Shown here piece by piece: positions 790-60,718 of a stretch of 64,000 bases of DNA. The stretch is from Hydrogenovibrio crunogenus (GTDB taxonomy: Bacteria > Pseudomonadota > Gammaproteobacteria > Thiomicrospirales > Thiomicrospiraceae). Location: positions 434,001-498,000 of the forward strand of contig NZ_CP032096.1 in assembly GCF_004786015.1 (NCBI RefSeq). Reading direction: 5' to 3'. A model generated the notes under the pieces. It searched no databases and was not told the DNA's origin. It worked only from the letters and a program-made list of their open reading frames with translations. The position numbers and the translations under genes were made by a program. Numbering within the stretch: position 1 is the stretch's first letter; each line of letters opens with the position of its first letter.

Positions 790-1410
790 TTAAGTGGAAG
801 AAGTGTTTTGCAGGCGTTGAATACGTTCAGCTAATTGATCCACCGCTTGGGAAGTTTGCTGTACATTTTGCGCAAATCGATTGATTTGTGAGTGGGTCGG
901 CAGCACTTCTATTTCGAACTGCAAATACTCTTTGAGCGTTTCGCCGATTTTCTGTTTAGCATCACGAGAAGATTTTTGGCCTTGTCGAACCGTGGAGCCG
1001 ACTTTGAATGCGATTAAATCACCGGTCACCTTAGACAACTGTTCTTCCCAGTCGATTTCTAAGGTCTTGACCGCTTCAATAAACGCTTCCGCCACCGTTT
1101 CATCGCCCGAAGTTTGGTAAGCTGGCTGGTTTTGAATCCAGTCGTTAACGGAAAACTTGAGGTGACAATCGGGGCTGCCCATTAAGTGATTCTGCACACT
1201 GAATGTGCCTTGCCCATCCGGCTGGATTTGATAGATCAGAAAAAAGGTTTGTGCAAAATCCGTCAATGTCAGTTGAATGACTTTTTCATCACAAGGGGCA
1301 AAGGCTTGACCTTGTTGATCATCCAGTTGAATCGCCTGGTTAAGCAGTGTTTCAAACAGTTTGGATAATGATGTTTTGACCAGGCCTGGTGAATTTTCTG
1401 ACGTGTCCAT
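790..1410 (-). CDS. ubiJ: UbiJ, SCP2-domain ubiquinone biosynthesis accessory factor
   Basis: A 206-residue protein with an SCP2 sterol-carrier-like domain in the first two thirds and a predicted coiled-coil tail rich in Gln and Leu. UbiJ binds the lipid intermediates of ubiquinone synthesis and scaffolds the soluble Ubi complex with UbiK. I chose the ATG at 1410 because AAAAGGA lies 6-7 bases upstream; a TTG eight codons earlier (1434) would overlap ubiE and lacks a ribosome site. It sits 11 bp after ubiE and 13 bp before ubiB. A copy of the iterated palindrome CCAGGCCTGG (1380-1389) is embedded in codons for SPGLVK near the N-terminus. Identity rests on gene order and the SCP2-like sequence. 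Confidence 0.88.
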   Translation of the reverse strand: MDTSENSPGLVKTSLSKLFETLLNQAIQLDDQQGQAFAPCDEKVIQLTLTDFAQTFFLIYQIQPDGQGTFSVQNHLMGSPDCHLKFSVNDWIQNQPAYQTSGDETVAEAFIEAVKTLEIDWEEQLSKVTGDLIAFKVGSTVRQGQKSSRDAKQKIGETLKEYLQFEIEVLPTHSQINRFAQNVQQTSQAVDQLAERIQRLQNTSST

Positions 1411-1421
1411 ACCGATTCCTT

Positions 1422-2186
1422 TTAGTATTTCCAACCGCGATGCAATGCCACAATGCCTTCAGACATGTTGAGGTATTCGGCTTTATCAAAGCCAGCCTCC
1501 AGCATCATTTGCTTGAGTGTTTCCTGGTCGGGGTGCATGCGGATCGACTCGGCCAGGTATTGATAGCTGGCTTCATCATCGGCGATGAGTTTTCCCATTT
1601 TCGGCAAGATACTGAAAGAATAAAAATCGTAGGCTTTGGCCAGTAATGGTTGAGTCACTTTGGAAAACTCCAGAACCATCAGTTGTCCACCTGGTTTCAA
1701 AACACGATAGATTTCTTCAAGTGCCTTGTCCTTGTTGGTGACGTTACGAAGCCCGAACGAAATGGTCACCAAATCAAAGGTGTTGTCAGGATAGGTCAGT
1801 GCTTCGGCATTAGTGATGGTGTAATCCACATTGCCGATGACGCCTTCATTGGTGAGGCGGTCACGCCCGACACGTACCATACTTTCATTGATGTCGGCGA
1901 GTACCACACGCCCGGTTTTACCGACACGTTTGGCGAAGGCTTTGGTTAAATCTCCAGTACCACCCGCTAAATCCAACACGACATTACCCGGACGGATGCC
2001 ACTGAGTTCAATCGCATGACGTTTCCATAGACGATGAATACCGAATGACATCACATCGTTCATAATGTCGTAATTGCCAGCCACCGAGTCAAACACGCCT
2101 TTTACTTTTTTAACTTTCTCTTCTAGTGGCACTTCGCTAAAGCCGAAATCAATGGTTTTTTTGGAGTGTGAATGCTCTGTTGTCAT
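1422..2186 (-). CDS. ubiE: UbiE, ubiquinone/menaquinone C-methyltransferase
   Basis: A 254-residue class I SAM-dependent methyltransferase, close to the family's usual 251. It shows the UbiE hallmarks: [15 protein letters not shown] near the N-terminus, the SAM-binding loop [12 protein letters not shown], and [15 protein letters not shown]. It catalyses the C-methylation of the benzoquinol ring in ubiquinone synthesis. The start at the ATG at 2186 matches the family length and has AGGA upstream; a GTG nine codons earlier (2213) is less likely. It is the first of the ubiE-ubiJ-ubiB run and follows a DUF971 gene at 44 bp. Confidence 0.96.
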
Positions 2187-4062: not shown

Positions 4063-4914
4063 ATGACAAACTTATTAAAATTTTCCAAAATGCAGGGTCT
4101 GGGCAATGACTTTATGGTGATTGACGCCACGCAAGAAACGATTACGCTCTCAACAGAAGAAATTCGTTTCTGGGCGAACCGCTATTTTGGCGTGGGGTTT
4201 GATCAGTTGCTCATGGTGGAAAATTCGGCACAGGTCGATGTGGATTTTCGTTATCGTATTTTCAATGCCGATGGTTCGGAGGTTCAACAGTGCGGCAACG
4301 GCGCGCGTTGTTTTGCCAAGTTTGTGTATGACCAAGGCTTAACCGATAAAACCGAGATACGAGTGGAAACGGCGTCAGGCATTATTGTGCTGTACATTAC
4401 CGAACAAGGTTGGGTGCGCGTAAATATGGGCGCGCCGAACTTTTTACCGCAAGCCTTGCCATTTGATATGCCGTTGGAATCGGAACAATATGAATTGGAT
4501 GTGGACGGAGAACGTTTTGAAATTGGTGCCGTGTCGATGGGGAACCCCCATGCGGTATTACGGGTGGCCGATTTAGGTGCCGCGCCTGTCGCCGAAGTGG
4601 GTGAAAAAATTGAATCGCACCGGTTGTTCCCGGAAAGAGTGAATGTGGGATTTGCTGAAACATCGGATCGTCAACATATCAAATTACGCGTTTATGAACG
4701 CGGTGCGGCAGAAACGTTAGCCTGCGGCACCGGAGCCTGTGCGGCCATGGTGGTGTTAAGAAACCTCGGAGAGGTGGACGATGTGGTGACGGTTTCGTTG
4801 CCTGGTGGTGATTTAGAGATTGAATGGAATGGTGATAAAAGTAGCCCGGTTTGGATGACTGGCCCCGCCGTCCATGTGTTTGATGGGGAAATTGCAAGAG
4901 GAGTACCTGCTTAG
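4063..4914 (+). CDS. dapF: DapF, diaminopimelate epimerase
   Basis: A 283-residue cofactor-independent epimerase that interconverts LL- and meso-diaminopimelate for lysine and peptidoglycan synthesis. N-terminus [15 protein letters not shown] is typical. The two catalytic cysteines are Cys77 (QQCGNGARC) and Cys221 (LACGTGACA), both intact. Its TAG stop overlaps by one base the GTG start of the DUF484 gene, and dapF-DUF484-xerC is a conserved gammaproteobacterial order, although two minus-strand genes separate xerC from the pair here. Confidence 0.97.
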
Positions 4915-5585
4915 TGTCTAGCTTGATTAATGATATTCATGCCGAAGATGTGGCGAACTATTTGAACCGAAACCGTGAATTCTTTCATGTGTTTCCGAAT
5001 TTGTTGAATGAGTTGAGTATTCCGCATCCGAAAAGTGGCCATGAGGTTTCTTTATTGGAACGTCAGGTGTTTCAGTTAAGAGAGCAGCGAGACAGCCTGC
5101 AAGTTGAAGTGGACACACTGAAAGACATTGCCGGTGAAAACGGTGCCTTGTTGCATAAGGTGTATGATCTATCGTATGCCTTACTGGCGGCAGAGTCAGA
5201 GCAGGACGCCGTCAACGTGGTTTATGATGTGATGCACGAAGTCTTTACTGTTGAAGAAGTGACTATTATTTCTTGGGATGTCCCGAAAACATCGGTTCAT
5301 GGCGTAAATCAGCTAGGGATTTCCCAGGCCTGGTCAAAAAGCTTAAAAGAAACCTTACAGCCGGGTAAACCGGTTTGTGGCTTGTTGGAAGACAGTTGGC
5401 AGAAAGGGTTATTTCATACGGATCAAGCCATGCAGTCCGTTTGCGTGATTCCCTTGGGGCAGCAACGAGTGTGGGGTGCTTTGGCGCTGGGGGCGACCAC
5501 GGATCGTTTTAGCCCAGAGTTAGGCACTTACTTTTTAAAAGTGATGGGGCAGATGATCACGGCGCGATTGCAACGCCTGTTTTAA
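4914..5585 (+). CDS. DUF484 family protein (GAF-like)
   Basis: A 223-residue protein of the DUF484 family: VANYLNRNREFFHVFPNLL, then SLLERQVFQLREQ, followed by a GAF-like C-terminal half with FSPELGTYFLKVMGQMI. The GTG start overlaps the dapF stop by one base, so translation is probably coupled. Members are commonly found between dapF and xerC; the biochemical role is unknown. A copy of CCAGGCCTGG (5324-5333) is encoded within it as SQAWS. Confidence 0.9.
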   Translation: MSSLINDIHAEDVANYLNRNREFFHVFPNLLNELSIPHPKSGHEVSLLERQVFQLREQRDSLQVEVDTLKDIAGENGALLHKVYDLSYALLAAESEQDAVNVVYDVMHEVFTVEEVTIISWDVPKTSVHGVNQLGISQAWSKSLKETLQPGKPVCGLLEDSWQKGLFHTDQAMQSVCVIPLGQQRVWGALALGATTDRFSPELGTYFLKVMGQMITARLQRLF

Positions 5586-7298: not shown

Positions 7299-8252
7299 TT
7301 GAGTGATTATCAACGCTTTATCAAGCAATTAAAGCTAGAAAACAAGTCCGAGCATACGATATCAAACTATCAGCGGGATTTGATGGGTTTACTGGTGTTT
7401 TATTTAGGGGAATTCCTTGAACGTCCATTAGACGAAAAAGCTCTTAAAAGTGACCAGGCCTGGGCGTTTTTAGATCAATTTGATGATTGGCAAGCGATTC
7501 AGCTGCCGGTGTTGCAAGCCTTTATTGCGTCTCGTATGCAACAGGGCATTGCCGCCCGTAGCATTGCTCGACAATTATCGGCTATTCGAGCCTTCTACGC
7601 TTTTTTGATTGAGCAAGGTAGAGCCTTACACAACCCGGCAAAAGGACTGAAAGCGCCTAAACAACCCAAAGCGCTGCCTAAAAGTTTGGATGTGGATTTG
7701 ACACGACAGCTCTTGGAACAACCATTGAAAACCTGGCAGGACGTGCGTGACCAAGCCATTTTTGAAATTTTGTATTCCGGTGGTTTGCGAGTCTCCGAAC
7801 TGGTGGAGTTGGACTTGTCTCCTGGATTGGATGGCTTGGCTTCAGGTTGGGTTCGGGTGCTCGGGAAAGGGCAGAAAGAACGAGATGCCCCTGTCGGACA
7901 ACCGGCACAAAAGGCACTGCATCGTTGGCTTGAGATTCGATCTGACTATGCCAAGCCAGGAGAACAAGCCGTTTTCGTTAACCGATTTGGGAAGCGGCTA
8001 GGGGTCAGGAGTATTCAAACACAGCTGGATAAAAGAACCTTGCAAGCAGGGCTGCCCACCAAAATGTCGCCTCATAGATTGCGGCACGCCTGTGCAACGC
8101 ATGTGTTAGAATCTAGCGGAGATTTAAGGGCGGTACAAGAGATGCTAGGCCATGCCAATCTGTCGACCACACAGATTTATACCAAGCTGGATCTGCAACA
8201 TTTAGCCACGGTGTATGACAAAGCGCATCCCAGAGCAAAGAAAAAGCCTTAG
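7299..8252 (+). CDS. xerC: XerC, tyrosine recombinase for chromosome dimer resolution
   Basis: A 317-residue tyrosine recombinase. The catalytic set is complete: Arg164 (GGLRVSEL), Lys190, His259 and Arg262 (HRLRHACATH), His285 (LGHANLST) and nucleophile Tyr294 (IYTKLD). The N-terminal SAM-like domain is slightly longer than usual (residues about 40-70). The start is a TTG at 7299 with AGAGG eight bases upstream; no ATG or GTG fits the conserved N-terminus. XerC acts with XerD at dif to resolve chromosome dimers. It precedes hslV by 48 bp. A CCAGGCCTGG copy (7454-7463) encodes DQAW at residues 52-55. Confidence 0.95.
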   Translation: MSDYQRFIKQLKLENKSEHTISNYQRDLMGLLVFYLGEFLERPLDEKALKSDQAWAFLDQFDDWQAIQLPVLQAFIASRMQQGIAARSIARQLSAIRAFYAFLIEQGRALHNPAKGLKAPKQPKALPKSLDVDLTRQLLEQPLKTWQDVRDQAIFEILYSGGLRVSELVELDLSPGLDGLASGWVRVLGKGQKERDAPVGQPAQKALHRWLEIRSDYAKPGEQAVFVNRFGKRLGVRSIQTQLDKRTLQAGLPTKMSPHRLRHACATHVLESSGDLRAVQEMLGHANLSTTQIYTKLDLQHLATVYDKAHPRAKKKP

Positions 8253-9441: not shown

Positions 9442-9469
9442 TAAAACTGACCAGGCCTGGTCAGTTTTA
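9442..9469. repeat. Perfect 28-bp palindrome containing CCAGGCCTGG, probable bidirectional terminator
   Basis: A perfect palindrome centred on 9455/9456, with core CCAGGCCTGG flanked by TGA/TCA and A/T runs. It lies 15 bp after the yqhA stop and a few bases beyond the 3' end of the convergent tracrRNA. As RNA it would fold into a GC-rich hairpin followed by U residues in either direction. It is one of at least 11 copies of the core in the window. Confidence 0.8.
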
Positions 9470-9594: not shown

Positions 9595-9612
9595 CTAACA
9601 GGGTACGTGACT

Positions 9613-12600
9613 ATGAGCAAGAAAATTTTAGGCCTGGACTTAGGAACGAATTCAGTTGGCTGGGCATTGTTTGAATCGGATGAAGATTTAGCACCCCAAA
9701 AGCTAATAGACTTGGGTGTTCGGATTTTTCAGCGCGCAGTTGAAGATAAAACCCCCACACCAAAAAATCAGGCGCGCCGCAACGCAAGAATGGCTCGCCG
9801 TATTTTGCAACGTCGCGCACGCCGCAAACAAAGAATGCAAAACTTTTTAATTTCCCAACAGTTACTGCCCTCAAGTCTGTCAGAAACAACACAACCTGAA
9901 ATAATCTTAACCGGTACTCACGGTATTCCCGGTTTGGGTGACCCCTATGAGCTTAGAGCAAAAGCACTAGACTTTGAATTAAAACCCTATGAACTTGGAA
10001 GGGTGTTATTGCACCTTGTACAGCGACGTGGTTTTCAAAGTAATCGTAAAACTCTGTTAGGGGATATGGCCGATGATCCAGACGTAGTGAGTATCCTAAC
10101 TGAAGAAAAAGAAGATTTATCTTCTGAAGAAACCGCATTTAAAAAGGATATCGTTCAGTTAAGAGAGGAAATAAAAAAATCCGGCGCAAGAACGCTGGGT
10201 GAATATCTCTATAAACTCCCCGCCGGACAGGTAAAACGAAATCGTTCAAGAGAAGGTGGTAATTTAAGAACGGATAGAAGCATGTATAAGGATGAGTTTT
10301 GGCAAATTGTCGATGCGCAAAAAGCATTTCATCCTGTACTAGAAGAAATTGATCTAGCCCTGTTTGAAATTATTTTTTTTCAGCGCCCCTTAAAGCTAAA
10401 AAAAGATCGTGTCGGTAAATGCTCGCTCGAACCAACTAAACACCGTGCAAAAAAAGCCTGGCAAACCTATCAACGGTTTAGATATTTACAAGATATAAAT
10501 AGTTTAAAACTATTTAATAGTTATACCACGGAATGGCGACCATTAAACTCTGAAGATCGTGCCAAGCTAATTGAGCTTTTTGAAAAAGATAAAAAACCTA
10601 CGCTGGCAAAAATAAAAAAAGCCTTAGGGTTAAGTAAAAATGATCAGCTTAACTTTGAAAGTGGAAATAAGAATTTTAAGGGCAATACGACGGCTATCGC
10701 AATTCGAGAAGCTTATTCTGGATGGGATGATTTAGCATTGAAACAACAGAACAAACTCGAAGAAGACTTGGTTTCATTTGTCAGTAAAAAAGCCCTAAAA
10801 AAACGTCTAGAAACCCATTGGGGGTTAGATACAGAAACCGCCATTAATCTTTGTGTAACAGAACTAGAACCAGAACATTCAGACTTATCCTTAAAAGCGA
10901 TTAATAACCTTCTACCTTACCTTGAACAAGGTCAAATATATTCAGATGCAAGGGTAAGTGCCGGTTATGGTTATGAAATAGTCACGAATGAGCCGCAAGA
11001 CAAGCTTAGTGCACCGCCTGAAATTCCCAACCCAATCGTGATGAAAGGGTTACATGAAGTAAAACGGGTTGTGAATGCAATTATTAAGCAATACGGTAAA
11101 CCTGACGCGATACGGTTAGAAATGGCGCGTGATCTTGAAATGAATACAAAGCGATATAAAGCATTTGTAAGTCAGCAAAACAAAAATAAATCGGACAATC
11201 AAGAGGCGCAAGATCAATTTGAATCCATTGCGGCTGCAAACCGTCATTTAGGGTTGTCAAAGTATCCGTCACATACAGATAAGCTGAAATACCGTTTATG
11301 GAAAGAACAGCAAAAACTGTGTGCTTACAGCCATAAACCAATTAGTTTGACTGAGCTTTTTACAGGTGCGGTTGAAATTGATCATATCTTGCCTTATTCG
11401 CTCACGCTTGATGATTCCTATATGAATAAAGTAGTGTGTTTTGCGAGCGAAAATCAGTTTAAAGGTCAGCGTACACCAAAAGAAGCATTTGAAAGTAATA
11501 GCACTAAATGGGAGCAAATTGAGCAGGGCATTAGCCGTTGGTATGCTAAAGGCTTAATGACTAAGCGTGATGCCTTTTATAAAACCAGTGAAGACTTGGA
11601 TAAAGACTTTATTGGTAGCCAGTTAACGGATACCCGCTACATTAGCCGAGAAGCCCTGCATTATTTGCAAACATTAGGCGTTGAAGTTACAACGATAAAA
11701 GGGCAAGTCACCTCTTGGTTGCGTCATATATGGGGCATGAACAGCCTGTTAGATGACGCTAAAAATGAAAAAGACCGTAGTGATCATCGGCACCATGCCA
11801 TTGATGCGGCAGTGGTGGCGTGTGCAGACCGAAAACTTTACAACACCATTGTGCGCGTTGCTAAAGACTTAGAAAAACAACCGGGTACCTTGAATATAAA
11901 AGATATTCACATAGACCCAATGTTTGATCAGTTTCGTCAACAGGTTGGGAGTCGGTTGCAAGATATTATCATTGCGCATGCCCCTGTCAGAAAAATTACA
12001 GGCGCATTGCATGAAGATACAGGGTTAGGTTTTATTGAAGGTGTGGGAACTGTATATCGTAAAAACCTAGATGAAACCCTAACCGCTAAAAGTGCGGAAA
12101 ATATTTTAGATCCGGTAGTAAAAGCATTAGTAAAAGCCCATCTAGAAAAGCATGGTAATAAGCCAAAGGTCGCCTTTTCTAAAAATAATCCGGTTTTCCA
12201 CAAAGACGGCAAAACACCAATTAAGCGTGTACGTATTTTGCAGTCAAAAAACACGCTTAAAGATTTAGAGCATTCAAAGTTAGGCATCAAAAATCAAAAT
12301 GGCGAGGTGTTTAAATGGATGACGCTAGGCAATACCCATCATGTTGAAATTTTTCGTCATAAAGAAACCGGAAAATATAAAGCCGAATTTATTACCGCTT
12401 TAGAGGCGACCCAAAGAGTGGTGCAAAATAAGCAACCCATGATTAAAGGGTATTTAGATGATCAATATGAGTTTTGTTTTGCTTTACATAAAAATGATTT
12501 GGTAAGAGCTAAAAATAGTGATAAATATGAAATATATCGAATACAGAAGTTTGAAGCATCAGGTGCTAAGTTAAGTTTGAGGGGGCACACCGCATCAACC

Positions 12601-12720
12601 CTTGATAAAAAAGAACAGGAAATTCGCAAAGCGATACCTACGTTAATGAGGGAGTATGAAATGCAAAAAATTCAAGTGAATGCCATTGGGGTTATGGCAA
12701 ATGATCAAACGTACTCTTGA
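9613..12720 (+). CDS. cas9: Cas9, type II-C RNA-guided DNA endonuclease
   Basis: A 1035-residue Cas9, within the compact II-C size range (about 970-1100). RuvC-I is KKILGLDLGTNSVGWAL with catalytic Asp9. An arginine-rich bridge helix spans residues 51-77 (QARRNARMARRILQRRARRK). RuvC-II has Glu503 (IRLEMARDLE). The HNH domain has EIDHILPYS with catalytic His591, followed by NKVVCFASENQFKGQRTP. RuvC-III is SDHRHHAIDAAVVACADR with His728 and Asp731. All nuclease residues are intact, so it should cut both strands. The start is the ATG at 9613 with AGGG nine bases upstream; a GTG at 9607 is too close to that site. The last 20 bases overlap cas1. The gene is more AT-rich and Lys-rich than its neighbours, consistent with transfer. 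PAM specificity cannot be read from the sequence. Confidence 0.97.
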   Translation: MSKKILGLDLGTNSVGWALFESDEDLAPQKLIDLGVRIFQRAVEDKTPTPKNQARRNARMARRILQRRARRKQRMQNFLISQQLLPSSLSETTQPEIILTGTHGIPGLGDPYELRAKALDFELKPYELGRVLLHLVQRRGFQSNRKTLLGDMADDPDVVSILTEEKEDLSSEETAFKKDIVQLREEIKKSGARTLGEYLYKLPAGQVKRNRSREGGNLRTDRSMYKDEFWQIVDAQKAFHPVLEEIDLALFEIIFFQRPLKLKKDRVGKCSLEPTKHRAKKAWQTYQRFRYLQDINSLKLFNSYTTEWRPLNSEDRAKLIELFEKDKKPTLAKIKKALGLSKNDQLNFESGNKNFKGNTTAIAIREAYSGWDDLALKQQNKLEEDLVSFVSKKALKKRLETHWGLDTETAINLCVTELEPEHSDLSLKAINNLLPYLEQGQIYSDARVSAGYGYEIVTNEPQDKLSAPPEIPNPIVMKGLHEVKRVVNAIIKQYGKPDAIRLEMARDLEMNTKRYKAFVSQQNKNKSDNQEAQDQFESIAAANRHLGLSKYPSHTDKLKYRLWKEQQKLCAYSHKPISLTELFTGAVEIDHILPYSLTLDDSYMNKVVCFASENQFKGQRTPKEAFESNSTKWEQIEQGISRWYAKGLMTKRDAFYKTSEDLDKDFIGSQLTDTRYISREALHYLQTLGVEVTTIKGQVTSWLRHIWGMNSLLDDAKNEKDRSDHRHHAIDAAVVACADRKLYNTIVRVAKDLEKQPGTLNIKDIHIDPMFDQFRQQVGSRLQDIIIAHAPVRKITGALHEDTGLGFIEGVGTVYRKNLDETLTAKSAENILDPVVKALVKAHLEKHGNKPKVAFSKNNPVFHKDGKTPIKRVRILQSKNTLKDLEHSKLGIKNQNGEVFKWMTLGNTHHVEIFRHKETGKYKAEFITALEATQRVVQNKQPMIKGYLDDQYEFCFALHKNDLVRAKNSDKYEIYRIQKFEASGAKLSLRGHTASTLDKKEQEIRKAIPTLMREYEMQKIQVNAIGVMANDQTYS

Positions 12721-13573
12721 AATTAGTCACCCTAGTTATTTAAAAAGCCATCAGGGGCAATTGGTGATCGAGCAAAATCACCAAACTGTTGGGCAAGTGG
12801 CGTTTGAAGATTTGGGCGTTTTGATTCTGGCACATCCGCAAATCACGCTCACGCAATCTGTGCTGGCAGCCTGTGCACAAGTTAATTGCGCGATAATCCA
12901 TTGTGACCATCGACACATGCCAAGCAGTTTAACTTTGCCATTAGCCGCTCACACGTTACATAGCAAAATTATTCAGCAGCAAATTCAAATAACACCGGTG
13001 CGACGTAAACAAATTTGGCAGCAAATTGTGCGAGAAAAAATCGTTCAACAAGCACAAACCCTGCAAAATTTAAATAAAGACAGTCAAGCATTAACGCGCA
13101 TGGTCAGCTTAGTGCAGTCGGGCGATAAAACCAACCTTGAGGCGCAAGCAGCACAAAAATATTGGCCGTTATTGCTCGGTAAAGATTTTAGGCGCGACTC
13201 AGAGATGGAAGGCATAAACAGCCTGCTAAATTATGGTTACGCAGTTATCCGAGCGACCGTTGCCAGAGCACTTGTCGGTACGGGGTTTCATCCAGCAATC
13301 GGGTTAAACCATAGTAACCAATATAACGCTTACTGTTTGGCCGACGATGTGATGGAGCCATTTCGCCCCTGGATTGATCAACACGTTGTGGGTTTGGAGT
13401 CGGATCAAATAAATCAGCAAAACAAAGCAATTTTGCTCAGCCAATTAAATCAAACAGTGGTTTATCAACAAAAATCACAACCTTTTTTGGTTGCGCTGAG
13501 TTTGTTTGTGGCGCAATTAAAATCAGCCTATTCAGACAGCGAGGTGGTTTTAACGTTTCCACGGAGGGATTAG
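12701..13573 (+). CDS. cas1: Cas1 (type II / NMENI subtype), spacer integrase
   Basis: A 290-residue Cas1, starting at the ATG at 12701 inside the end of cas9 (20-bp overlap); an in-frame ATG at 12680 is possible but the N-terminus MIKRTLEISHPSYLKSHQGQ matches the family better. Metal-binding candidates are Glu147 (NLEAQAAQKYW), His204 (GLNHSNQYNAY) and Asp215/216 (LADDVMEPFRP), all present. With Cas2 it forms the integrase that inserts new spacers at the leader end of the array. Its TAG stop is followed directly by cas2. Confidence 0.96.
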   Translation: MIKRTLEISHPSYLKSHQGQLVIEQNHQTVGQVAFEDLGVLILAHPQITLTQSVLAACAQVNCAIIHCDHRHMPSSLTLPLAAHTLHSKIIQQQIQITPVRRKQIWQQIVREKIVQQAQTLQNLNKDSQALTRMVSLVQSGDKTNLEAQAAQKYWPLLLGKDFRRDSEMEGINSLLNYGYAVIRATVARALVGTGFHPAIGLNHSNQYNAYCLADDVMEPFRPWIDQHVVGLESDQINQQNKAILLSQLNQTVVYQQKSQPFLVALSLFVAQLKSAYSDSEVVLTFPRRD

Positions 13574-13575
13574 TG

Positions 13576-13905
13576 ATGATATTTGGGGGGCAACATACCA
13601 TGTGGATAATTGTCTTATTTGACTTACCAACCGACAGTGAAAAAGCGCGAAAAGATTACACGAATTTTAGAAAGCACCTATTAGAAAATGGCTTTACCAT
13701 GATGCAATACAGTGTTTATATGCGTCATTGTGCCAGTGACGAAAATGCACAAATGCATGTTCAGCGTGTACGTGCGATTCTGCCACCTGACGGTGAAGTC
13801 AGAATTGTCAAAATAACCGATAAACAGTTTGGAAAAATTGAAGTCTTTTATGGAAAAAAACGCATTGAAACAGAAAAAGCCCCAGAACAACTTATGTTTT
13901 TCTGA
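13576..13905 (+). CDS. cas2: Cas2, spacer-acquisition subunit
   Basis: A 109-residue ferredoxin-like Cas2. The core MWIIVLFDLPTDSEKARKDY, then MMQYSVYMRHCAS and KITDKQFGKIEVFYGKK, is typical of type II Cas2. GGAGG at 13563-13567 lies 8 bases before the ATG at 13576; a GTG at 13573 overlapping the cas1 stop and an internal ATG at 13600 are alternatives, and the last would match shorter family members. There is no csn2 or cas4, which fits subtype II-C. The array begins about 50 bp downstream. Confidence 0.95.
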   Translation: MIFGGQHTMWIIVLFDLPTDSEKARKDYTNFRKHLLENGFTMMQYSVYMRHCASDENAQMHVQRVRAILPPDGEVRIVKITDKQFGKIEVFYGKKRIETEKAPEQLMFF

Positions 13906-15426: not shown

Positions 15427-15452
15427 AAAACTGGCCAGGCCTGGTCAGTTTT
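15427..15452. repeat. Near-perfect palindrome with CCAGGCCTGG core downstream of the flavin reductase gene
   Basis: A 26-bp palindrome with 12 of 13 pairs matching, core at 15435-15444, AAAA and TTTT at the ends. It lies 2 bp beyond the stop of the minus-strand flavin reductase gene and 50 bp from the last CRISPR repeat, so it probably terminates that gene and may insulate the array. Confidence 0.75.
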
Positions 15453-15454
15453 GA

Positions 15455-16075
15455 TTACTTATCTGTTTCTAAAACCGGCCTGACCAGTTCAAAATCGGCC
15501 GAGGCATAGGTGTACTCATTACCTCCGAGTTTGCCAACTGCGTTCAACTTTTCAGATTGAATCATCCCTTCCTGAATCAATGTATCGTCGACATAAATAT
15601 GCAACACATCCAGCAAAATCAGTTTTCCTCCGCCGGGTTGGTCTGACAGGGCGATGACGTCTTTTAAACGACATTCGTAGCGAACTTTGGCTTGTGCCAC
15701 CCCTCTAGCGGTGACGCTCTGGCTGTCACAGGCGGCAATTTTAAGTGCTTCGAACTCACTTGTTTTTTGAGCATAGTTGGCACAAGAGGCATTCATCATT
15801 TCGGCCAGGTCGGCACTGACAATATTGATGACACATTCATGTGTTTCTTTAAGGTTACGCAAGGTGTCTTTATCCGATTCCGGTTGCGCATTAATTTGTG
15901 TCACCGTCAGAACCGGTGGGGTGCAGCTGGCGACACTGAAAAACGAATAAGGCGCTAAGTTATCGATGCCTTGTGAACTTTGTGTGCTGATCCAAGCGAT
16001 AGGGCGTGGAATAATGCCGCCAACCAGTAAGGGGTAGAGCTGAGAAATATTAAGATTCGGAGTGTGGTAATGCAT
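15455..16075 (-). CDS. Flavin reductase-like domain protein (DIM6/NTAB type)
   Basis: A 206-residue split-barrel flavoprotein. Typical motifs are LVGGIIPRPIAWIST followed by NLAPYSFFSVASCTPPVLTVT, then HIYVDDTLIQEG and VGKLGGNEYTYA. Relatives bind FMN and often act as flavin reductases or unknown flavoenzymes. The start is the ATG at 16075, with AAGG seven bases upstream; the frame stays open 33 more codons to a TTG inside the preceding gene, but those residues are not family-like. It follows the YdcF-like gene by 8 bp, suggesting an operon. Substrate unknown. Confidence 0.88.
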   Translation of the reverse strand: MHYHTPNLNISQLYPLLVGGIIPRPIAWISTQSSQGIDNLAPYSFFSVASCTPPVLTVTQINAQPESDKDTLRNLKETHECVINIVSADLAEMMNASCANYAQKTSEFEALKIAACDSQSVTARGVAQAKVRYECRLKDVIALSDQPGGGKLILLDVLHIYVDDTLIQEGMIQSEKLNAVGKLGGNEYTYASADFELVRPVLETDK

Positions 16076-16083
16076 ATCGGCCT

Positions 16084-16902
16084 TTATTGCGATGTTTGAA
16101 GTGTTGTTTCTGGAAGCCAGTCCGAAGTCTTGCCTGTCCAATAATAAACGGTCAAGCCAATCCATTCTTTCCATGCGGGTTCAAGAGATTTAAGGTGGTC
16201 AAAAAAATCAAAATCAATTTTTCGTAGTTTGTCACTGTTACCCCGGTAATCCACCGGGTAAGGAATGACGTGAATGGCTTGTTTGTTGGCAATGCCAACC
16301 GCGCGTGGCATGTGAAAGGCCGAGGTTACCAGCATGTAAGTGCCTTGTCGGGCTGGGAGCAGTTTCTTAGTATATTTAAAATTTTCATACGTGTTGCGAG
16401 AAAGTGATTCAATAATTAAGCGTTTATTGGCAATGCCCAGCGTGGTTAAGAGCTGGCGCGCAAGACTGCCTTCTCCTTTTGTATTTTGGAGTTGCATTGA
16501 ACCACTTCCGCCAGTAAAGATGACTGGAGCTTTTGGGTAATGGTTAGCGAGCTCTTTGGCACCAATGTAACGGTCTCCGCCAATTCCCAGTTCCGGGCGT
16601 CCCCAGCTCAGGCTGCGTTTAAGGTCTTCTCCGCCACCCAATACAATAATGCCATCTATGTCTTTGGGCAGTGTTTCTGGTGATTTAAACCGTTGTTCCA
16701 GCGGCTGGATTAACAGATCCCCTATTGGGAAAGCGAGCACAATGAACCCCGCTAAACTGGCTGGCAACAACAATGTTTTTGCGGTTTCGGTTCTATTAAA
16801 AAGCAAAAAAATCGATCCTAAAATCAGTAGGATTAAAATAATGTTACTGGGGCTCAAAAAAGCCCAAGCAATTTTCGACACTATAAAAAATAATGAATCC
16901 AT
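16084..16902 (-). CDS. YdcF/ElyC/SanA-type DUF218 membrane protein
   Basis: A 272-residue protein with two N-terminal membrane helices (residues about 10-35 and 40-62) and a DUF218 domain: GIIVLGGGEDLKR, then APVIFTGGSGSM, IIESLSRNTYENFKYTK, and YMLVTSAFHMPRAVGI. The topology resembles ElyC, which acts in envelope and peptidoglycan precursor homeostasis in E. coli. A substrate is unknown. It is the upstream gene of a likely two-gene minus-strand operon with the flavin reductase-like gene. The 349 bp between it and clpB hold the divergent promoters and no other gene that I can see. Confidence 0.85.
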   Translation of the reverse strand: MDSLFFIVSKIAWAFLSPSNIILILLILGSIFLLFNRTETAKTLLLPASLAGFIVLAFPIGDLLIQPLEQRFKSPETLPKDIDGIIVLGGGEDLKRSLSWGRPELGIGGDRYIGAKELANHYPKAPVIFTGGSGSMQLQNTKGEGSLARQLLTTLGIANKRLIIESLSRNTYENFKYTKKLLPARQGTYMLVTSAFHMPRAVGIANKQAIHVIPYPVDYRGNSDKLRKIDFDFFDHLKSLEPAWKEWIGLTVYYWTGKTSDWLPETTLQTSQ

Positions 16903-19882: not shown

Positions 19883-19892
19883 GTGTCTAATT

Positions 19893-20375
19893 TCAGCCAG
19901 GCCTGGCTGTTTTATAGGATGAAACTTTGGCTTGTAGGCTCTTTCGACCAGCTTTTCGGTGTGCCAGCAAAGCAAAGGGGATCAGTAGGCCAAGCCCCAC
20001 ATGTATGAGACTACTGAGTTGTGATAAATCCGGGTCGCCAAAGTAATAGATGCCTAAACTGCTGACAATGAGAAAGGCCCAGACGCTCGTAAAAACGACG
20101 CCGCTGAGACGATTTTCATGTCGTCGCCAATGAGAGCGCATATGGATGGTCCAGATGGCACCGATGAACCACACCATTAACCAGCCGGATATGGCATGCA
20201 ATGAGGTGGTTAGGTGTCTTAAGTCTCCACTGGAAAAAGGGAAGTCCATTAGCCAAGCGATATTGGATTCCATGCGGAAAAATAAAAAGGCAGGCACCAA
20301 TAGAACGCCACTGATGAGCAGTATCACCAGAATGGTGAAGACCAAAAGAAAAAAGAATTTAGGGTAACCGTTCAT
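19893..20375 (-). CDS. Four-helix membrane protein, possible cytochrome b-like electron carrier (last gene of flavin operon)
   Basis: A 160-residue protein with four hydrophobic helices (about residues 7-32, 56-80, 93-110, 121-140). Histidines sit in helix 2 (TTSLHAISGW and TIHMRSHW) and helix 4 (SLIHVGLGL and LLAHRKAG), the arrangement of small four-helix b-type cytochromes such as DUF4405-like proteins. I do not recognise a named family. It overlaps apbE by 4 bp and ends the Fur-boxed operon. Its context with an FMN-binding protein and ApbE suggests it passes electrons from quinol or cytoplasm to the flavin protein. The C-terminal residues TARPG and stop are encoded by the palindrome at 19894-19909. 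Confidence 0.6.
   Translation of the reverse strand: MNGYPKFFFLLVFTILVILLISGVLLVPAFLFFRMESNIAWLMDFPFSSGDLRHLTTSLHAISGWLMVWFIGAIWTIHMRSHWRRHENRLSGVVFTSVWAFLIVSSLGIYYFGDPDLSQLSSLIHVGLGLLIPFALLAHRKAGRKSLQAKVSSYKTARPG
19894..19909. repeat. CCAGGCCTGG palindrome at the gene's 3' end
   Basis: A perfect 16-bp palindrome with core at 19897-19906. It supplies the last codons and the stop of the minus-strand four-helix gene, where it converges with clpB. Confidence 0.75.
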
Positions 20376-23127: not shown

Positions 23128-24281
23128 CGACTGACCAATCGGCTTTTCAAATAAATCCCAGCACTGTTACCCGCTAAAGCGGCAATGGCCCATAGCCAAC
23201 CATGCAGGCTTCCTGAACCGATGCCACTAAAGAAAGCGCCGATGTTACACCCAAAGGCAATTACCGAACCATACCCCATGATAAAGCCGCCGACTACCGC
23301 GAAAAGGTGAGGTTTAAGGGTAAACTGTGTGGCTTCCTGTTGGGTGTTTTTGGCCAGCAATGTGACGAGCAGTGCACCAAAGATCAACCCTAAAGTGGTT
23401 AAGCTCACCGTATCTTGCAAGACCGCGCTTTCCAAACGGTTTGCATGACTGATGCCATAAGACCAGAACTGCCAATCAACTGGAAAATGCAAGCCGTCAC
23501 TGATTTTTAATCCCCAGTAAGGAAAGACATTTGCGATTGACCAAGGTTGACCGCTTAACAGTAATAAAAGTGCATTGAGACCAGCCAATACCAGCCCGGC
23601 TTTTAACCAAGGGTGCCAATCTGATATCTTCCAAAAAGAGCTATGAGACAACTGGCTGACTTCCGTAAAGTTATTTTTTTCTTTGATGATCGCGAACCAA
23701 TACAATAGAGCGATAAACCCTAATTGAATGACCAGGCCTGAGGTAAGTCCGAACTGCTCCAGTACCGATACAGGGGCGAGAGCGGGAACAGAACGCCAAA
23801 ATTCATTATGGTAAGCGGCTAACGTTCCGCCGATGAGTAGAAAAATAAAGCTGCTGAGCGAAAGCGGTTGTAGTTGCCCCAGTTTGTTGAAGGTACCTGA
23901 CGTACAACCATTCGCCAACTGCATCCCGACCCCAAACATAAAGGCGCCCGCCACGACAGATAAACTAAGCGGTTGTACAAATCCCGTCATAGGTTGGCCA
24001 TTGATTGAGCCGATACTGAGTAATACGAAAAAGAGTACACTGCTTAGTGCAAGCATCCAAAGAACGGCTCGAATTCCCAATGTTCGGCCTTGTGTTAACA
24101 GCTGATGAGAGCAGGTTCTAAAACCAAATTGAAAATAATTTAGGCTGGCCCCCAGCAAGGCGCCGACTAAAAAAAGAGCCATATTGGTTTGCGCCAACAC
24201 AAGACTCAATGCCAGTAATGGCATGAGTAAAATCAGTGCAAATGATTTTTGAAATGGGTAAAAAAACAGTATGCGGTTCAT
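23124..24281 (-). CDS. YeeE/YedE-family permease, probable thiosulfate or sulfur-compound importer
   Basis: A 385-residue membrane protein with about 10 helices and two half-repeats. The conserved cysteine motifs are NGCTSGTFNKLGQ in the first half and AFGCNIGAFFSGIGSGSLHG in the second. In characterised relatives (TsuA) such cysteines line a thiosulfate pathway. In a sulfur oxidiser, uptake of thiosulfate or related compounds fits, but some YeeE proteins serve selenium or sulfur trafficking instead. It stands alone, convergent with the Cys-rich gene. Confidence 0.85.
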   Translation of the reverse strand: MNRILFFYPFQKSFALILLMPLLALSLVLAQTNMALFLVGALLGASLNYFQFGFRTCSHQLLTQGRTLGIRAVLWMLALSSVLFFVLLSIGSINGQPMTGFVQPLSLSVVAGAFMFGVGMQLANGCTSGTFNKLGQLQPLSLSSFIFLLIGGTLAAYHNEFWRSVPALAPVSVLEQFGLTSGLVIQLGFIALLYWFAIIKEKNNFTEVSQLSHSSFWKISDWHPWLKAGLVLAGLNALLLLLSGQPWSIANVFPYWGLKISDGLHFPVDWQFWSYGISHANRLESAVLQDTVSLTTLGLIFGALLVTLLAKNTQQEATQFTLKPHLFAVVGGFIMGYGSVIAFGCNIGAFFSGIGSGSLHGWLWAIAALAGNSAGIYLKSRLVSR

Positions 24282-27982: not shown

Positions 27983-28010
27983 TAAAAATGACCAGGCCTG
28001 GCCGTTTTTA
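27983..28010. repeat. CCAGGCCTGG palindrome between cbbQ and cbbO
   Basis: A 28-bp imperfect palindrome (12 of 14 pairs) with core 27992-28001. Its left-hand three bases on the minus-strand side form the cbbQ stop codon. It may limit readthrough into cbbO. Confidence 0.7.
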
Positions 28011-31601: not shown

Positions 31602-32528
31602 TTAACGCGTATCCGACATGGCCAGCAATTTGTTAATGTCGACCGATTTTAGAAATTCTAAAAATGCGACAGCTGGTGGCATGAGTACTTTATCTTGCAT
31701 TTTAGCAATGTACCAGTCGCGGCTCAGAGGAAATCCTTGAACATCGAGAACGGTTAAGTGGCCGTATTTTGCTTCAATGCGAACAGCATGCCGGGCAATG
31801 ACAGAAATACCCAGGCCTGCCATAACTCCTTGCTTGATTGCTTCGGTACTGCCCAATTCCATGTAAGGTTGGATGGCATAGCCTTCTTCGGCAAAGCGCT
31901 CTTCTGTGGCAATACGAATGCCTGAGCCAGCTTCGCGCATTAAAAAGTTTTCATTCACCAGGTCGCTCAATGGAATTTGCTTATGCTTTGCCAGAGGGTG
32001 GTTAGGCGGCGCAGCTACAATCAATTCGTTCTTGAAAAATGGGAAGGCTTCCATTTTTAATTCGGGTGGTACTCTTCCCATAATAGAGAGGTGATATTGG
32101 TTTTGTTTAAGCTCATCTATGATGCGTCTTCTATTAACAACTGTTATGGAAGGAATGACATCCGGGTATTTATTTAAAAATGCCTTCAAAACATAAGGAA
32201 TAAAAAATTTGGCCGGGGTGACAACCGCCAATTTAAGTTCCCCTTCAATTTTATTTTGATCCGTCTTAATGTTGGTGTTAAGGGTCTTAAGCTCTTCTAG
32301 AATGGTGGTGCAGGTCTTAAACATGTGTTCACCTGCGGATGTTAAATAGAGTTTTTTTCCGATGACTTCAATCAATTTAATTTCATTATTTTCTTCCAGA
32401 CGCTTAACTTGAACGGAGACGGCAGGTTGAGAAAGATTAAGTTCTTCGGCTGCTTTTGTGTAACTTAAATGCCTTGAAACAGCCTCGAAAATCCTGATCT
32501 GTTGGGCTGTTATATGTAAGTTTTGCAT
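31602..32528 (-). CDS. cbbR: CbbR-type LysR regulator, divergent from cbbL
   Basis: A 308-residue LysR-family regulator with helix-turn-helix YTKAAEELNLSQPAVSVQVKR and effector domain FLMREAGSGIRIATEERF. It is divergent from cbbL across 221 bp, the classical arrangement for the CbbR activator of a cbb operon. It shares the same architecture as the neighbouring cbbR but differs clearly in sequence, so the pair is not a recent duplication. A near-match of the iterated palindrome (CCAGGCCTGC) is at 31811-31820. Confidence 0.92.
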   Translation of the reverse strand: MQNLHITAQQIRIFEAVSRHLSYTKAAEELNLSQPAVSVQVKRLEENNEIKLIEVIGKKLYLTSAGEHMFKTCTTILEELKTLNTNIKTDQNKIEGELKLAVVTPAKFFIPYVLKAFLNKYPDVIPSITVVNRRRIIDELKQNQYHLSIMGRVPPELKMEAFPFFKNELIVAAPPNHPLAKHKQIPLSDLVNENFLMREAGSGIRIATEERFAEEGYAIQPYMELGSTEAIKQGVMAGLGISVIARHAVRIEAKYGHLTVLDVQGFPLSRDWYIAKMQDKVLMPPAVAFLEFLKSVDINKLLAMSDTR

Positions 32529-35710: not shown

Positions 35711-38044
35711 ATGAGTTTTGATATTGAAGAAGTCAAAGCATCCTTGATTGAAAGTGTGCCGCAACTGGAAGAAATGCTTGATTCATTGATTCATGAAGCT
35801 TCGCATTATATGAATGAAGCCTCTCGTGAAACATGGTTGCAGAACGCACAGGGAATTGCTTACTTAGGAAAAGGCCAACAGGTTGTCGTTAGCTATCTTG
35901 AAGCAGTGCCGCAAGTGATTGCCAAGATTGATGATGAGATTCTGGATGATATTCTTGAAACCGTCATGAAGTTATCTTCGGTGACGTCCGGAGAAGTGGT
36001 GTCTTTGGTATTGGATTCCTTGCCTGTTGTGGCTGAAAGAACCGGAGATATCGATCTTCTAAGACAATATTTAGCGCTGGTTTATCAAATTGGTTCCAAG
36101 ACTCCGCGCGGTATGCGTCCGATGTTGAACAATATTGACGAGTTGATGTCAAAACTGACGGTCTCTGGCTTAAGACGCTGGGCACAATGGGGGGCTCAAG
36201 CGCATGCTCGAAACTTCCAAGCTCAGATTGACTATTTCGGACTGGTATCTGAAGACTCTAAAGCCGTATTCCAGCAACAGCGTAAAGGGTCATTGTTCAT
36301 TGATTATCATAGACCCATCAATTTTTATTTGAGAGCTTTTTGGGCGCGTGACTTTTTTATTCGCCCTGCGGCAGCAGATTATGATGACTTTAAGCCTTAC
36401 TTTGAAAACATGGCGATGCATTTGCCGGATGCCTTGAATGATTTAGGTGAGATTAAAGGGGGCGAATTGTATCGTGCAATGGCAGCTCATATGGCATCGC
36501 ATTTAGCGTATACCAAAGAAGCCATTTCGATGGAGCAGCTAAACCCCCAGCAGATGTTCTTTATTGAGTTGATTGAAGATGCGCGTGTGGAGTATAACGC
36601 CATTAAAAATTTCCCAGGCCTGAAAGGGCTGTGGAAAAAAGTGATCAAAGCGAGTATGGAAGCATCCGAGCTGTCTGAAAAGTCGACGGCTTATCGTTTA
36701 GAGCAACTTGCTTTGAAATTGATGGATGAGAAACATGATTTGCAAGATGAGCAAATGATGGTGGTGGCAGAACGTTTCCATAATGAAATTGAAGAAAATT
36801 TGGATAACGAAAAGTGGTCCTGGGATTTAGGGATTCTGCTTTATAACGTCTTGAACAAAGCAACCACTCAGTGGGAATCGCTTACGGACATCAGTCAACA
36901 ACGTTTTGGTTATCGTGATGACAACCGTTTGGTTTGGGCATCTGATGAATGGGCTGATATGGAGGGCGGCGGTGCGCCGCACCAAGAAACGGTTCGTAAG
37001 CATGTTTCATTGATGGAGATGATTAATGAAATTGATTCAGAGTTGGTGGATGTCGATCATGAAGAAGTTTGGGTATTAGGATCTGAGCTTTATCCTTATG
37101 AAGATAATGGTCTGTCCTATAACGAAATGGAGGGGATTGAGCCGATTTCAGATCCTTTCCATTATCATGAATGGGATTATCGTGTTCAGCTGAATCGTCC
37201 AAACTGGGTGACTTTATACGAGCACCGCGCTAAAAAGGGCGACCCTCAGTTATATAACCGAATTCTAGATCAGAATAAAGGGATTGCACATCGTATTAAA
37301 CAAATCGTGGATAAACTACAAGCCGTTGGCTTACAACGTATTCGCCGCATTGAAGATGGAGATGAGTTGGATTTAAATGCGTGTGTTGAAGCGATTACGT
37401 CTATTCGTATGGGGCAAGAGCCTGATCCACGCATTACGATGAAAAATGTGATTCGCAGTCGTGAAGTCTCGGTGGTTGTGTTGCTTGATTTATCGGAATC
37501 AACTAATGAAATGGTTGATGGAGGGGATAAAACTGTCCTAGAAGTGACACAAGAAGCCGCGATCCTGGTTTCCCATGCCATTAATGGTATCGGTGATCAG
37601 TTTGCAGTACATGGTTTTTCATCGGATGGACGTCATGATCTGCAATATACTCGATTCAAACAGTTTGATGAGCCTTTTGATCAAGATGTCCACTCACGTC
37701 TTGCGGGGATGCAAGGTGGTTTATCAACTCGTATGGGTGGCGCTATGCGTCATGCAGGAAGCTATCTTGAAAAACAATCCAGTAAGCAGAAATTGCTGTT
37801 GGTGATTACCGATGGTGAACCAGCGGATATTGATGAAAAAGATGGCCAATACTTAAAACAAGATGCTAAAAAAGCGGTTGAGGAACTTCAGTCTAAAGGG
37901 GTTTATTCTTATTGCTTAACAATTGACCAATATGCCGATAAGTATGTGCATAATATTTTCGGTCAAAACCGTTATGCCATTGTAGATAATGTCTTGAAGC
38001 TGCCTGAAAAATTACCGCAATTATTTGCAAACTTAACCACTTAA
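35711..38044 (+). CDS. cbbO: CbbO of the form I RuBisCO operon, von Willebrand factor A activase subunit
   Basis: A 777-residue protein, paralogous to the cbbO at 25648. A long helical N-terminal part is followed by a C-terminal vWA domain with MIDAS motif VVLLDLSESTNEM, then STRMGGAMRHAG and ITDGEPADIDEK. It bridges the CbbQ ring to RuBisCO. It is 105 bp downstream of cbbQ and 18 bp upstream of an unknown gene. A near-match CCAGGCCTGA is at 36614-36623. Confidence 0.93.
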   Translation: MSFDIEEVKASLIESVPQLEEMLDSLIHEASHYMNEASRETWLQNAQGIAYLGKGQQVVVSYLEAVPQVIAKIDDEILDDILETVMKLSSVTSGEVVSLVLDSLPVVAERTGDIDLLRQYLALVYQIGSKTPRGMRPMLNNIDELMSKLTVSGLRRWAQWGAQAHARNFQAQIDYFGLVSEDSKAVFQQQRKGSLFIDYHRPINFYLRAFWARDFFIRPAAADYDDFKPYFENMAMHLPDALNDLGEIKGGELYRAMAAHMASHLAYTKEAISMEQLNPQQMFFIELIEDARVEYNAIKNFPGLKGLWKKVIKASMEASELSEKSTAYRLEQLALKLMDEKHDLQDEQMMVVAERFHNEIEENLDNEKWSWDLGILLYNVLNKATTQWESLTDISQQRFGYRDDNRLVWASDEWADMEGGGAPHQETVRKHVSLMEMINEIDSELVDVDHEEVWVLGSELYPYEDNGLSYNEMEGIEPISDPFHYHEWDYRVQLNRPNWVTLYEHRAKKGDPQLYNRILDQNKGIAHRIKQIVDKLQAVGLQRIRRIEDGDELDLNACVEAITSIRMGQEPDPRITMKNVIRSREVSVVVLLDLSESTNEMVDGGDKTVLEVTQEAAILVSHAINGIGDQFAVHGFSSDGRHDLQYTRFKQFDEPFDQDVHSRLAGMQGGLSTRMGGAMRHAGSYLEKQSSKQKLLLVITDGEPADIDEKDGQYLKQDAKKAVEELQSKGVYSYCLTIDQYADKYVHNIFGQNRYAIVDNVLKLPEKLPQLFANLTT

Positions 38045-44440: not shown

Positions 44441-45733
44441 TTAACTTAAGGATTCACGTTTAACGGCACGATGACCAATGTCAGTACGGTAATAAACCTC
44501 TTCCCAATGAATTTTTGAAACCCCTTCATAGGCACGTTTCTGAGCATCGGTAACATTTTCGCCTAGCGCGGTCACACAAAGAACGCGCCCTCCTGATGTA
44601 ACCAGTTGTCCTTGATCATTCAAACGGGTACCCGCATGGAAAACTTTAATATCCGTATTGTTGGCATCTTCAATGCCTTGGATGACATCTCCTTTACGGT
44701 ATTCATCAGGGTAGCCGCCAGCGGCTAAAACGACACCTAATGCAGGACGGGAATCCCATTTAGCGGTTACCGTGTCTAGTTTTTTATCCAATGCCGCTAA
44801 ACACAGTTCAGATAAGTCGGATTGTAAGCGCATCATGATAGGCTGAGTTTCAGGATCACCAAAGCGGCAGTTAAATTCAAGGACTTTCGGTGTCCCATCC
44901 GGTGCAATCATAATCCCGGCATATAAAAATCCAGTATAGGGTAGGCCGTCTTTAGCCATCCCATCAATGGTTGGACGAATGATCTCCTGCATAATGCGGT
45001 CATGGATTTTACGCGTCACCACTGGCGCAGGGGTATAAGCCCCCATACCGCCTGTATTTGGCCCGGTATCACCATTGTTTCGGGCTTTATGGTCTTGAGA
45101 AGTCGCCATAGGTAAGATGTTTTGACCATCTGCCATCACGATAAAACTGGCTTCTTCGCCGACTAGAAATTCTTCAATAACAACACGTGCACCAGCGTCC
45201 CCAAATTTATTACCTGCTAGCATATCTTCTACTGCGGCAATCGCTTCGGCATTGGTTTCAGCCAGGATAACGCCTTTACCTGCGGCTAAGCCATCGGCTT
45301 TAATGACAATTGGCGCGCCCATCTCTTTAATATAAGCCACTGCAGGCGGGATCTCTGTGAACACGGAGTAGGCGGCTGTTGGAATGTTGTGTTTCGCTAA
45401 AAAATCTTTAGAGAAAGCTTTAGATCCTTCCAGTTGCGCTGCTCCCTTGCTTGGACCAAAGCATTTTAGGCCTGCCGCTTCAAAAGCGTCAACCACACCA
45501 AGCACAAGAGGCACTTCCGGGCCAACAATGGTGAGTTCAATGGCATTGTTTTGAGCAAAATCTACCAGGCCTGGTAAGTCCTCAACGGCAATATCAACAT
45601 TTTCGATATTGTCTTCCAGTGCCGTTCCAGCGTTGCCAGGTGCAACAAATACTTTTGAAACCTTATCTGATTGAATGGTTTTCCACGCCAAAGCATGTTC
45701 GCGGCCACCGCTTCCAATAATGAGTACATTCAT
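44441..45733 (-). CDS. purD: PurD, phosphoribosylamine-glycine ligase (GAR synthetase)
   Basis: A 430-residue ATP-grasp enzyme of purine synthesis: N-terminus MNVLIIGSGGREHALAWK, VIKADGLAAGKGVILAE, and GPNTGGMGAYTPAPVV. Full length. It follows purH by 44 bp, the standard purH-purD order. A CCAGGCCTGG copy (45565-45574) encodes LPGLVD near residue 55. Confidence 0.98.
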   Translation of the reverse strand: MNVLIIGSGGREHALAWKTIQSDKVSKVFVAPGNAGTALEDNIENVDIAVEDLPGLVDFAQNNAIELTIVGPEVPLVLGVVDAFEAAGLKCFGPSKGAAQLEGSKAFSKDFLAKHNIPTAAYSVFTEIPPAVAYIKEMGAPIVIKADGLAAGKGVILAETNAEAIAAVEDMLAGNKFGDAGARVVIEEFLVGEEASFIVMADGQNILPMATSQDHKARNNGDTGPNTGGMGAYTPAPVVTRKIHDRIMQEIIRPTIDGMAKDGLPYTGFLYAGIMIAPDGTPKVLEFNCRFGDPETQPIMMRLQSDLSELCLAALDKKLDTVTAKWDSRPALGVVLAAGGYPDEYRKGDVIQGIEDANNTDIKVFHAGTRLNDQGQLVTSGGRVLCVTALGENVTDAQKRAYEGVSKIHWEEVYYRTDIGHRAVKRESLS

Positions 45734-51918: not shown

Positions 51919-52144
51919 GAAAGTATCCTTGATGCATTTCAGCGGAGCTAATCATTAAATTGTTGAAAATTATACCTGAAAGTTAGCTTTAACGATATAG
52001 AAAGTTATAAAAAAGTCGTGAAAATTCGTGAAATGTTGCGAAGTTTAAATTAAATGAAAAAAACAGGGTTGAGTTCTTTAAAACGGCGTTTTTGTCATCA
52101 AGATGAGATAAAAAACGTATTGAAAGGTGGTGTTATCTAGAATG

Positions 52145-52168
52145 AAAACGGCCAGGCCTGGCCGTTTT
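52145..52168. repeat. Perfect 24-bp CCAGGCCTGG palindrome downstream of dsbD
   Basis: A perfect palindrome with core 52152-52161, A4 on one side and T4 on the other. It lies 28 bp beyond the dsbD stop and probably terminates it. No gene is seen in the rest of the 277-bp gap up to aroQ. Confidence 0.8.
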
Positions 52169-52195
52169 TCGTGACGTTTTTGATTAAAATAAATC

Positions 52196-55093: not shown

Positions 55094-55121
55094 TAAAAAC
55101 GACCAGGCCTGGTCGTTTTTA
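55094..55121. repeat. Perfect 28-bp CCAGGCCTGG palindrome between convergent genes
   Basis: A perfect palindrome with core 55103-55112 and A5/T5 arms, between the convergent fxsA and SDR genes. Its form is that of a bidirectional terminator. Confidence 0.82.
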
Positions 55122-60064: not shown

Positions 60065-60718
60065 ATGACAGATGTAACATCCCTTACACCAGACTTTATT
60101 GTCGGCCAAGCTGGCCGCCTTGAAATCAGAATGACCAGGCCTGGTGAAAATTCAACGACAAGCTTAGCTTCTGACAGCCCTCAAAAGTGGGTGGTTCTGA
60201 GTCATCCTCATCCTCAATTTGGTGGCACAATGAATAATAAAGTCGTTACTACGATGGAAAAAACATTCCAAAGTTTGGGGTACGGCACTTTAGCTTACAA
60301 CTTCCGTGGTGTGGGAGAGTCTGAAGGGACTTATGATGGCGGTAGGGGTGAACAGCAAGATTTGTATGACGTCGTTCGCTGGTTAAGAGAGTCTGCCAAT
60401 TTATCCGAGCTTGTTTTAGCGGGGTTTTCTTTTGGAAGTTATATTGTGTTGAAGCAAGCCGACCAAATTCAACCCACCGCTATTTGTACGGTGGCTCCTC
60501 CAGTTTCTATGTATGACTTTTCAGATATCGAACCCACAATGCCGTGGTATTTAATACAAGGGGGGCAGGATGAGGTGATTGATGCCAGAGAAGTATTGGA
60601 CTGGGCGATGCAAATAAAAAAACAACCGGATGTTTTCTGGCGCGCTGAGGCAAGTCACTTTTTTCATCGACAGCTCATCTGGTTAAAAAAGATACTGATA
60701 ACGACATTTGAAAAGTGA
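60065..60718 (+). CDS. Alpha/beta hydrolase (COG2945-like)
   Basis: A 217-residue alpha/beta hydrolase. The oxyanion/structural motif is VVLSHPHPQFGGTMNNKVV, the nucleophile elbow GFSFGSYIV, an aspartate occurs in GGQDEVIDA, and a histidine in EASHFFHRQ, giving a full Ser-Asp-His triad. The family's substrates are mostly unknown. A CCAGGCCTGG copy (60135-60144) encodes TRPGE close to the N-terminus, in a segment that looks like an insertion relative to the family's usual start. Confidence 0.88.
   Translation: MTDVTSLTPDFIVGQAGRLEIRMTRPGENSTTSLASDSPQKWVVLSHPHPQFGGTMNNKVVTTMEKTFQSLGYGTLAYNFRGVGESEGTYDGGRGEQQDLYDVVRWLRESANLSELVLAGFSFGSYIVLKQADQIQPTAICTVAPPVSMYDFSDIEPTMPWYLIQGGQDEVIDAREVLDWAMQIKKQPDVFWRAEASHFFHRQLIWLKKILITTFEK

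Follow-up and report, generated by a model that had tools for sequence, protein, structure and literature searches.

DNA uptake sequences are stated, in 2025, to be known in only two bacterial families, the Neisseriaceae and the Pasteurellaceae (PMC12616744). The uptake signal sequence (USS) of the Pasteurellaceae consists of a core, AAGTGCGGT or ACAAGCGGT, plus downstream A/T tracts at fixed spacing; it is present in hundreds of copies, both in genes and in terminators, and its dialects differ by subclade (PMC12616744; PMC1939737). The DNA uptake sequence (DUS) of the Neisseriaceae, which is recognized by the ComP receptor, is a continuous motif without a T tract and is not palindromic; its several dialects share a constant inner part and follow phylogeny, and inverted copies act as terminators (PMC12616744; PMC1852404). 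A different type of repeated word is HIP1 of cyanobacteria (GCGATCGC), a highly iterated palindrome that is also found in genes in all frames. Here we describe an iterated palindrome, CCAGGCCTGG, in the sulfur-oxidising bacterium Hydrogenovibrio crunogenus and its relatives, which works like an uptake sequence with good sequence-level support, although uptake itself, the receptor and the pore remain unproven, so its membership of that class is not decided.

We analysed a stretch of 64,000 nucleotides (hereafter, the window; contig NZ_CP032096.1, positions 434,001 to 498,000), which is part of a single chromosome of 2,453,259 bases (genome G000). The original prediction, that CCAGGCCTGG occurs 11 times in the window, is confirmed: 0.02 copies are expected in dinucleotide shuffles, and none of 100 shuffles reached 11. 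The three near-matches that it listed are real single-mismatch copies. Five of the exact copies are inside genes, in all three frames (the translations SPGLV, SQAWS, DQAW, LPGLV and TRPGE agree with the sequence), while the other six are intergenic or, in one case, within the last codons of an ORF. The chromosome holds 367 copies, against 0 for the reversed control word. In 464 kb sampled round the chromosome there are 71 copies against about 0.5 expected from an order-4 Markov model, and CCAGGCCTGG is by far the strongest over-represented 10-mer. In the same sample, a second set of over-represented 10-mers (ACCGACTAAG, GACCTTAGTC, GCGCTTAGAC and AGTGTAACCG, about 23 copies each) appears to belong to one longer repeat, possibly a CRISPR repeat.

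Features of the window, with a chromosomal island lacking the motif (positions are those of the window unless marked)
Position	Core	Feature	Context	A/T tracts	RNA hairpin
1372-1397	1380-1389	Motif copy	Inside a gene for an SCP2-domain protein (790-1434, minus strand)	T tract on right side only	
5316-5341	5324-5333	Motif copy	Inside the DUF484 gene (4914-5585, plus)	None at the scored positions	
7446-7471	7454-7463	Motif copy	Inside a tyrosine recombinase gene (7299-8252, plus)	Both sides	
9443-9468	9451-9460	Motif copy, perfect palindrome AAAACTGACCAGGCCTGGTCAGTTTT	Just after the UPF0114 gene		-16.1 kcal/mol, z -3.2
15427-15452	15435-15444	Motif copy	3' end of the minus-strand gene 15455-16174	Both sides	
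19889-19914	19897-19906	Motif copy	Over the last codons of the minus-strand ORF 19893-20375		
27984-28009	27992-28001	Motif copy	Intergenic	Both sides	-13.3 kcal/mol
45557-45582	45565-45574	Motif copy	Inside purD (44441-45733, minus)	One side	
52144-52169	52152-52161	Motif copy	Intergenic	Both sides	-14.5 kcal/mol
55095-55120	55103-55112	Motif copy, perfect palindrome AAAAACGACCAGGCCTGGTCGTTTTT	Between convergent genes		-15.5 kcal/mol, z -5.2
60127-60152	60135-60144	Motif copy	Inside an alpha/beta hydrolase gene (60065-60718, plus)	Weak	
23732-23741		One-mismatch copy CCAGGCCTGA	Inside a gene		
31811-31820		One-mismatch copy CCAGGCCTGC	Inside a gene		
36614-36623		One-mismatch copy CCAGGCCTGA	Inside a gene		
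9607-12720 (+)		Cas9, 1,037 residues (HNH_4, RuvC_III and Cas9_a domains)	Directly downstream of motif copy 9451		
12680-13905		Following ORFs, may be cas1 and cas2			
13.9-15.4 kb		No long ORF, may be the CRISPR array			
411-431 kb (contig positions)		Genomic island: integrase, Mutator transposase, two divergent C5-methyltransferases, Mrr-type endonuclease; no motif copy	Next to ychF		

The original prediction noted longer palindromes with A/T-rich arms at gene ends, but missed that these arms are part of the element also in genes, and that relatives without the 10-mer carry altered versions. Alignment of the 71 sampled copies reveals a larger element, AAAAAYNRCCAGGCCTGGYNRTTTTT, in which A-rich positions -8 to -4 (65-87% A) are followed by YNR, the 10-base core and then the mirror image. 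Of the in-gene copies, 74% have at least four of the five tract bases on one side, against 8% at random positions and 3-13% around other GC-rich words. Moreover, sites that lack the full core but end in AGGCCTGG also keep the T tract (55% with at least four T). The tract is therefore part of the element and not only a terminator tail.

Of the 71 copies, 31 (44%) are in genes (8, 10 and 13 in the three frames) and 40 (56%) are in the 10% of DNA that is intergenic, mostly just after stop codons or between convergent genes; of the latter 40, 16 lie between convergent genes and 1 between divergent genes. Intergenic copies in the window fold into strong hairpins, which suggests that they double as terminators, while two in-gene copies fold no better than shuffles. 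The copies are evenly spaced, since among the first 100 sites none of the 99 gaps is below 1 kb, where 13 are expected at random. The largest gap among these sites (39 kb) holds two very long adjacent ORFs followed by many short ones, which, judged by ORF size and not by family search, looks like the rpoBC and ribosomal protein cluster. Another gap, of 20 kb, corresponds to the island listed in the table. Similarly, the 96.8 kb conjugative plasmid (TraF, TraG, TraH) of a relative, G021, has 5 copies where the chromosomal density predicts about 34, and the 16 kb TrfA plasmid of another, G060, has none. Although this sample of one island and two plasmids is small, the element is depleted in mobile DNA.

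Among the 63 genomes of the family that we compared, counts of the palindrome are bimodal, being mostly 234-856 or near background; extending the search to the order added no genomes, since the order as sampled equals the family. In contrast, none of 365 other gammaproteobacteria sampled exceeds 46. Interestingly, congeners that lack the palindrome are not empty, but carry a directional dialect of the same element: CCCAACCTGGYAGATTTT in G007 and G013, and CCCAGCCTGGYAGATTTT in G006, with most flank positions conserved at 85-98% and with both strands used. In G006 and G007, blocks of 5.6 to 9.0 kb of internally repeated DNA (perhaps ribosomal genes or repeat arrays) were masked; strong k-mers seen before masking were repeats. 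A pattern covering the shared half, CCTGGYNRWTTTT, gives 222-377 copies in these genomes and in G014, against 2-6 for the reversed control. In another genus, G027 has 1,025 copies of ACCGGCCGGT, a dialect that does not share the CCTGG half exactly, and G024, G047 and G048 have a shorter CAGGCCTG core. Some relatives (G025, G029, G030, G031, G043 and G052) show no motif in samples of 20 to 80 kb.

Notably, the dialects replace one another in place. In codon alignments of reciprocal best matches, 5 of 13 in-gene sites of G000 coincide within four bases with a site of the other dialect in G007, where 0.009 to 0.036 are expected, as do 3 of 10 in G006 and 2 of 3 in G013. For example, CACCCAGGCCTGGTCGAAATTC in G000 corresponds to GCCCCCAACCTGGTAGATTTTC in G007 and to GACCCCAGCCTGGCAGATTTTC in G006, with the CCTGG half and the T tract staying on the same side. 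Thus, the different words are versions of one element, although this exchange rests on few sites per species pair. The dialects also follow phylogeny (support for the relevant clades 84-100%): in a tree of ComEC plus DprA, the directional dialects lie in one clade (98% support) nested among palindromic ones, so the palindrome is probably older.

The machinery for such a system is less clear. ComEC passes its cut-off in 53 of the 63 genomes and DprA in 61 of 63, but these proteins are nearly universal and do not track the motif. Only G023 (split ComEC) and G051 (no strong ComEC match) would fit a loss of competence genes as the reason for lacking the motif, while the six relatives without the motif in our samples keep both. 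No genome in the family passes the curated PilQ cut-off. Instead, G000 has an MSHA-type operon, with the secretin MshL over its cut-off, a Tad-type pilus and a type II secretion cluster; if uptake occurs, the outer-membrane step may not be the textbook PilQ one. No receptor was identified among the candidates examined. Of three PF12019 (GspH/FimT) hits, the one in G052 lies in a pseudopilin cluster next to a GspD-like secretin, so they are probably type II secretion genes, and the MSHA pilin cluster is present with and without the motif and encodes mostly acidic pilins.

We consider it likely, though not established, that the motif is the self-recognition tag of a sequence-selective DNA uptake system of natural transformation in the family that contains Hydrogenovibrio, Thiomicrospira and probably Thiomicrorhabdus. 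This interpretation, already put forward in the original prediction, is supported, as it passed every sequence-level test of the motif that could be run. In this scenario, a surface DNA receptor would bind a core ending in CCTGG plus a T tract a few bases further on, so that kin DNA is taken up preferentially; repeated uptake and recombination would then drive hundreds of copies into the chromosome, evenly spaced, wherever coding constraint allows, and a shift of receptor specificity in a lineage would convert the copies in place to a new dialect. Receptor binding, preferential uptake, uptake drive and termination activity are all inferred here. Compared with the USS, the element shows no sequence similarity in the core, has a lower copy number, and its core is palindromic in many species, so a single copy can make a hairpin; compared with the DUS, it has a T tract and no ComP-type receptor was identified. 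We could also speculate, more tentatively, that this is a third, independently evolved system whose palindromic tags can be read from both strands and are themselves terminator hairpins, working through an MSHA-type rather than a PilQ type IV pilus, and that it preserves, site by site, a natural series of dialect switches, including a change from a palindromic to a directional tag. We found no earlier description of the motif, of its palindromic dialects or of competence in this group, in a literature search that lacked most subscription journals and hence does not exclude one.

Other origins for the element can be envisaged, but they appear unlikely. The core holds GGCC, AGGCCT and two CCWGG sites, and the palindromic dialects of several relatives (ACCAGGCCTGGT, CAGGCCTG and ACCGGCCGGT) have little A/T tract and all contain GGCC, as would suit a HIP1-like word maintained by DNA methylation, mismatch repair or restriction avoidance; the original prediction also drew the analogy to HIP1. 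This analogy fits worse. C5-cytosine methyltransferase genes, the only methyltransferase class searched for, are absent from most motif-rich genomes (including G005, G008, G009, G012, G022, G026, G027, G050, G062 and all nine of a genus, g6), which argues against a Dcm- or HIP1-like cause; in G000, the two C5-methyltransferases sit in the island that has no motif copy. In addition, sister species carry a directional motif without GGCC at the same positions, which also argues against HaeIII-like methylation.

The palindromic core, the even spacing and the depletion on a plasmid and an island could point to a binding site for a nucleoid-organising, segregation or division-control protein, in the manner of SlmA, Noc or MatP sites. 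However, no strong regional clustering is seen in the stretches sampled round the chromosome (1-5 copies per 20 kb), the element changes from palindromic to directional between sister clades while keeping its place and polarity, both strands are used in most stretches, and a large share of copies lies at gene ends as hairpins, so we regard this possibility as unlikely. Less likely still is that the element is a plain terminator hairpin of favoured sequence or a REP/MITE-like mobile hairpin. The intergenic copies would suit that reading, but it is already disfavoured by the in-gene copies; moreover, the directional dialects seldom form inverted pairs (16 of 103 sites), and there is no conserved flank beyond about 8 bases, as insertion of a longer element would leave.

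Because only two families have been available, how uptake sequences arise and change is argued from two cases. A third, unrelated case with at least four dialects and visible in-place conversion would give an independent test of the drive and self-recognition hypotheses, as well as a comparative route to the receptor, which would be a surface protein that changes where the dialect changes. Finally, our results suggest that these chemosynthetic sulfur bacteria may be naturally transformable, with a tag that could be added to DNA to make laboratory genetics possible.
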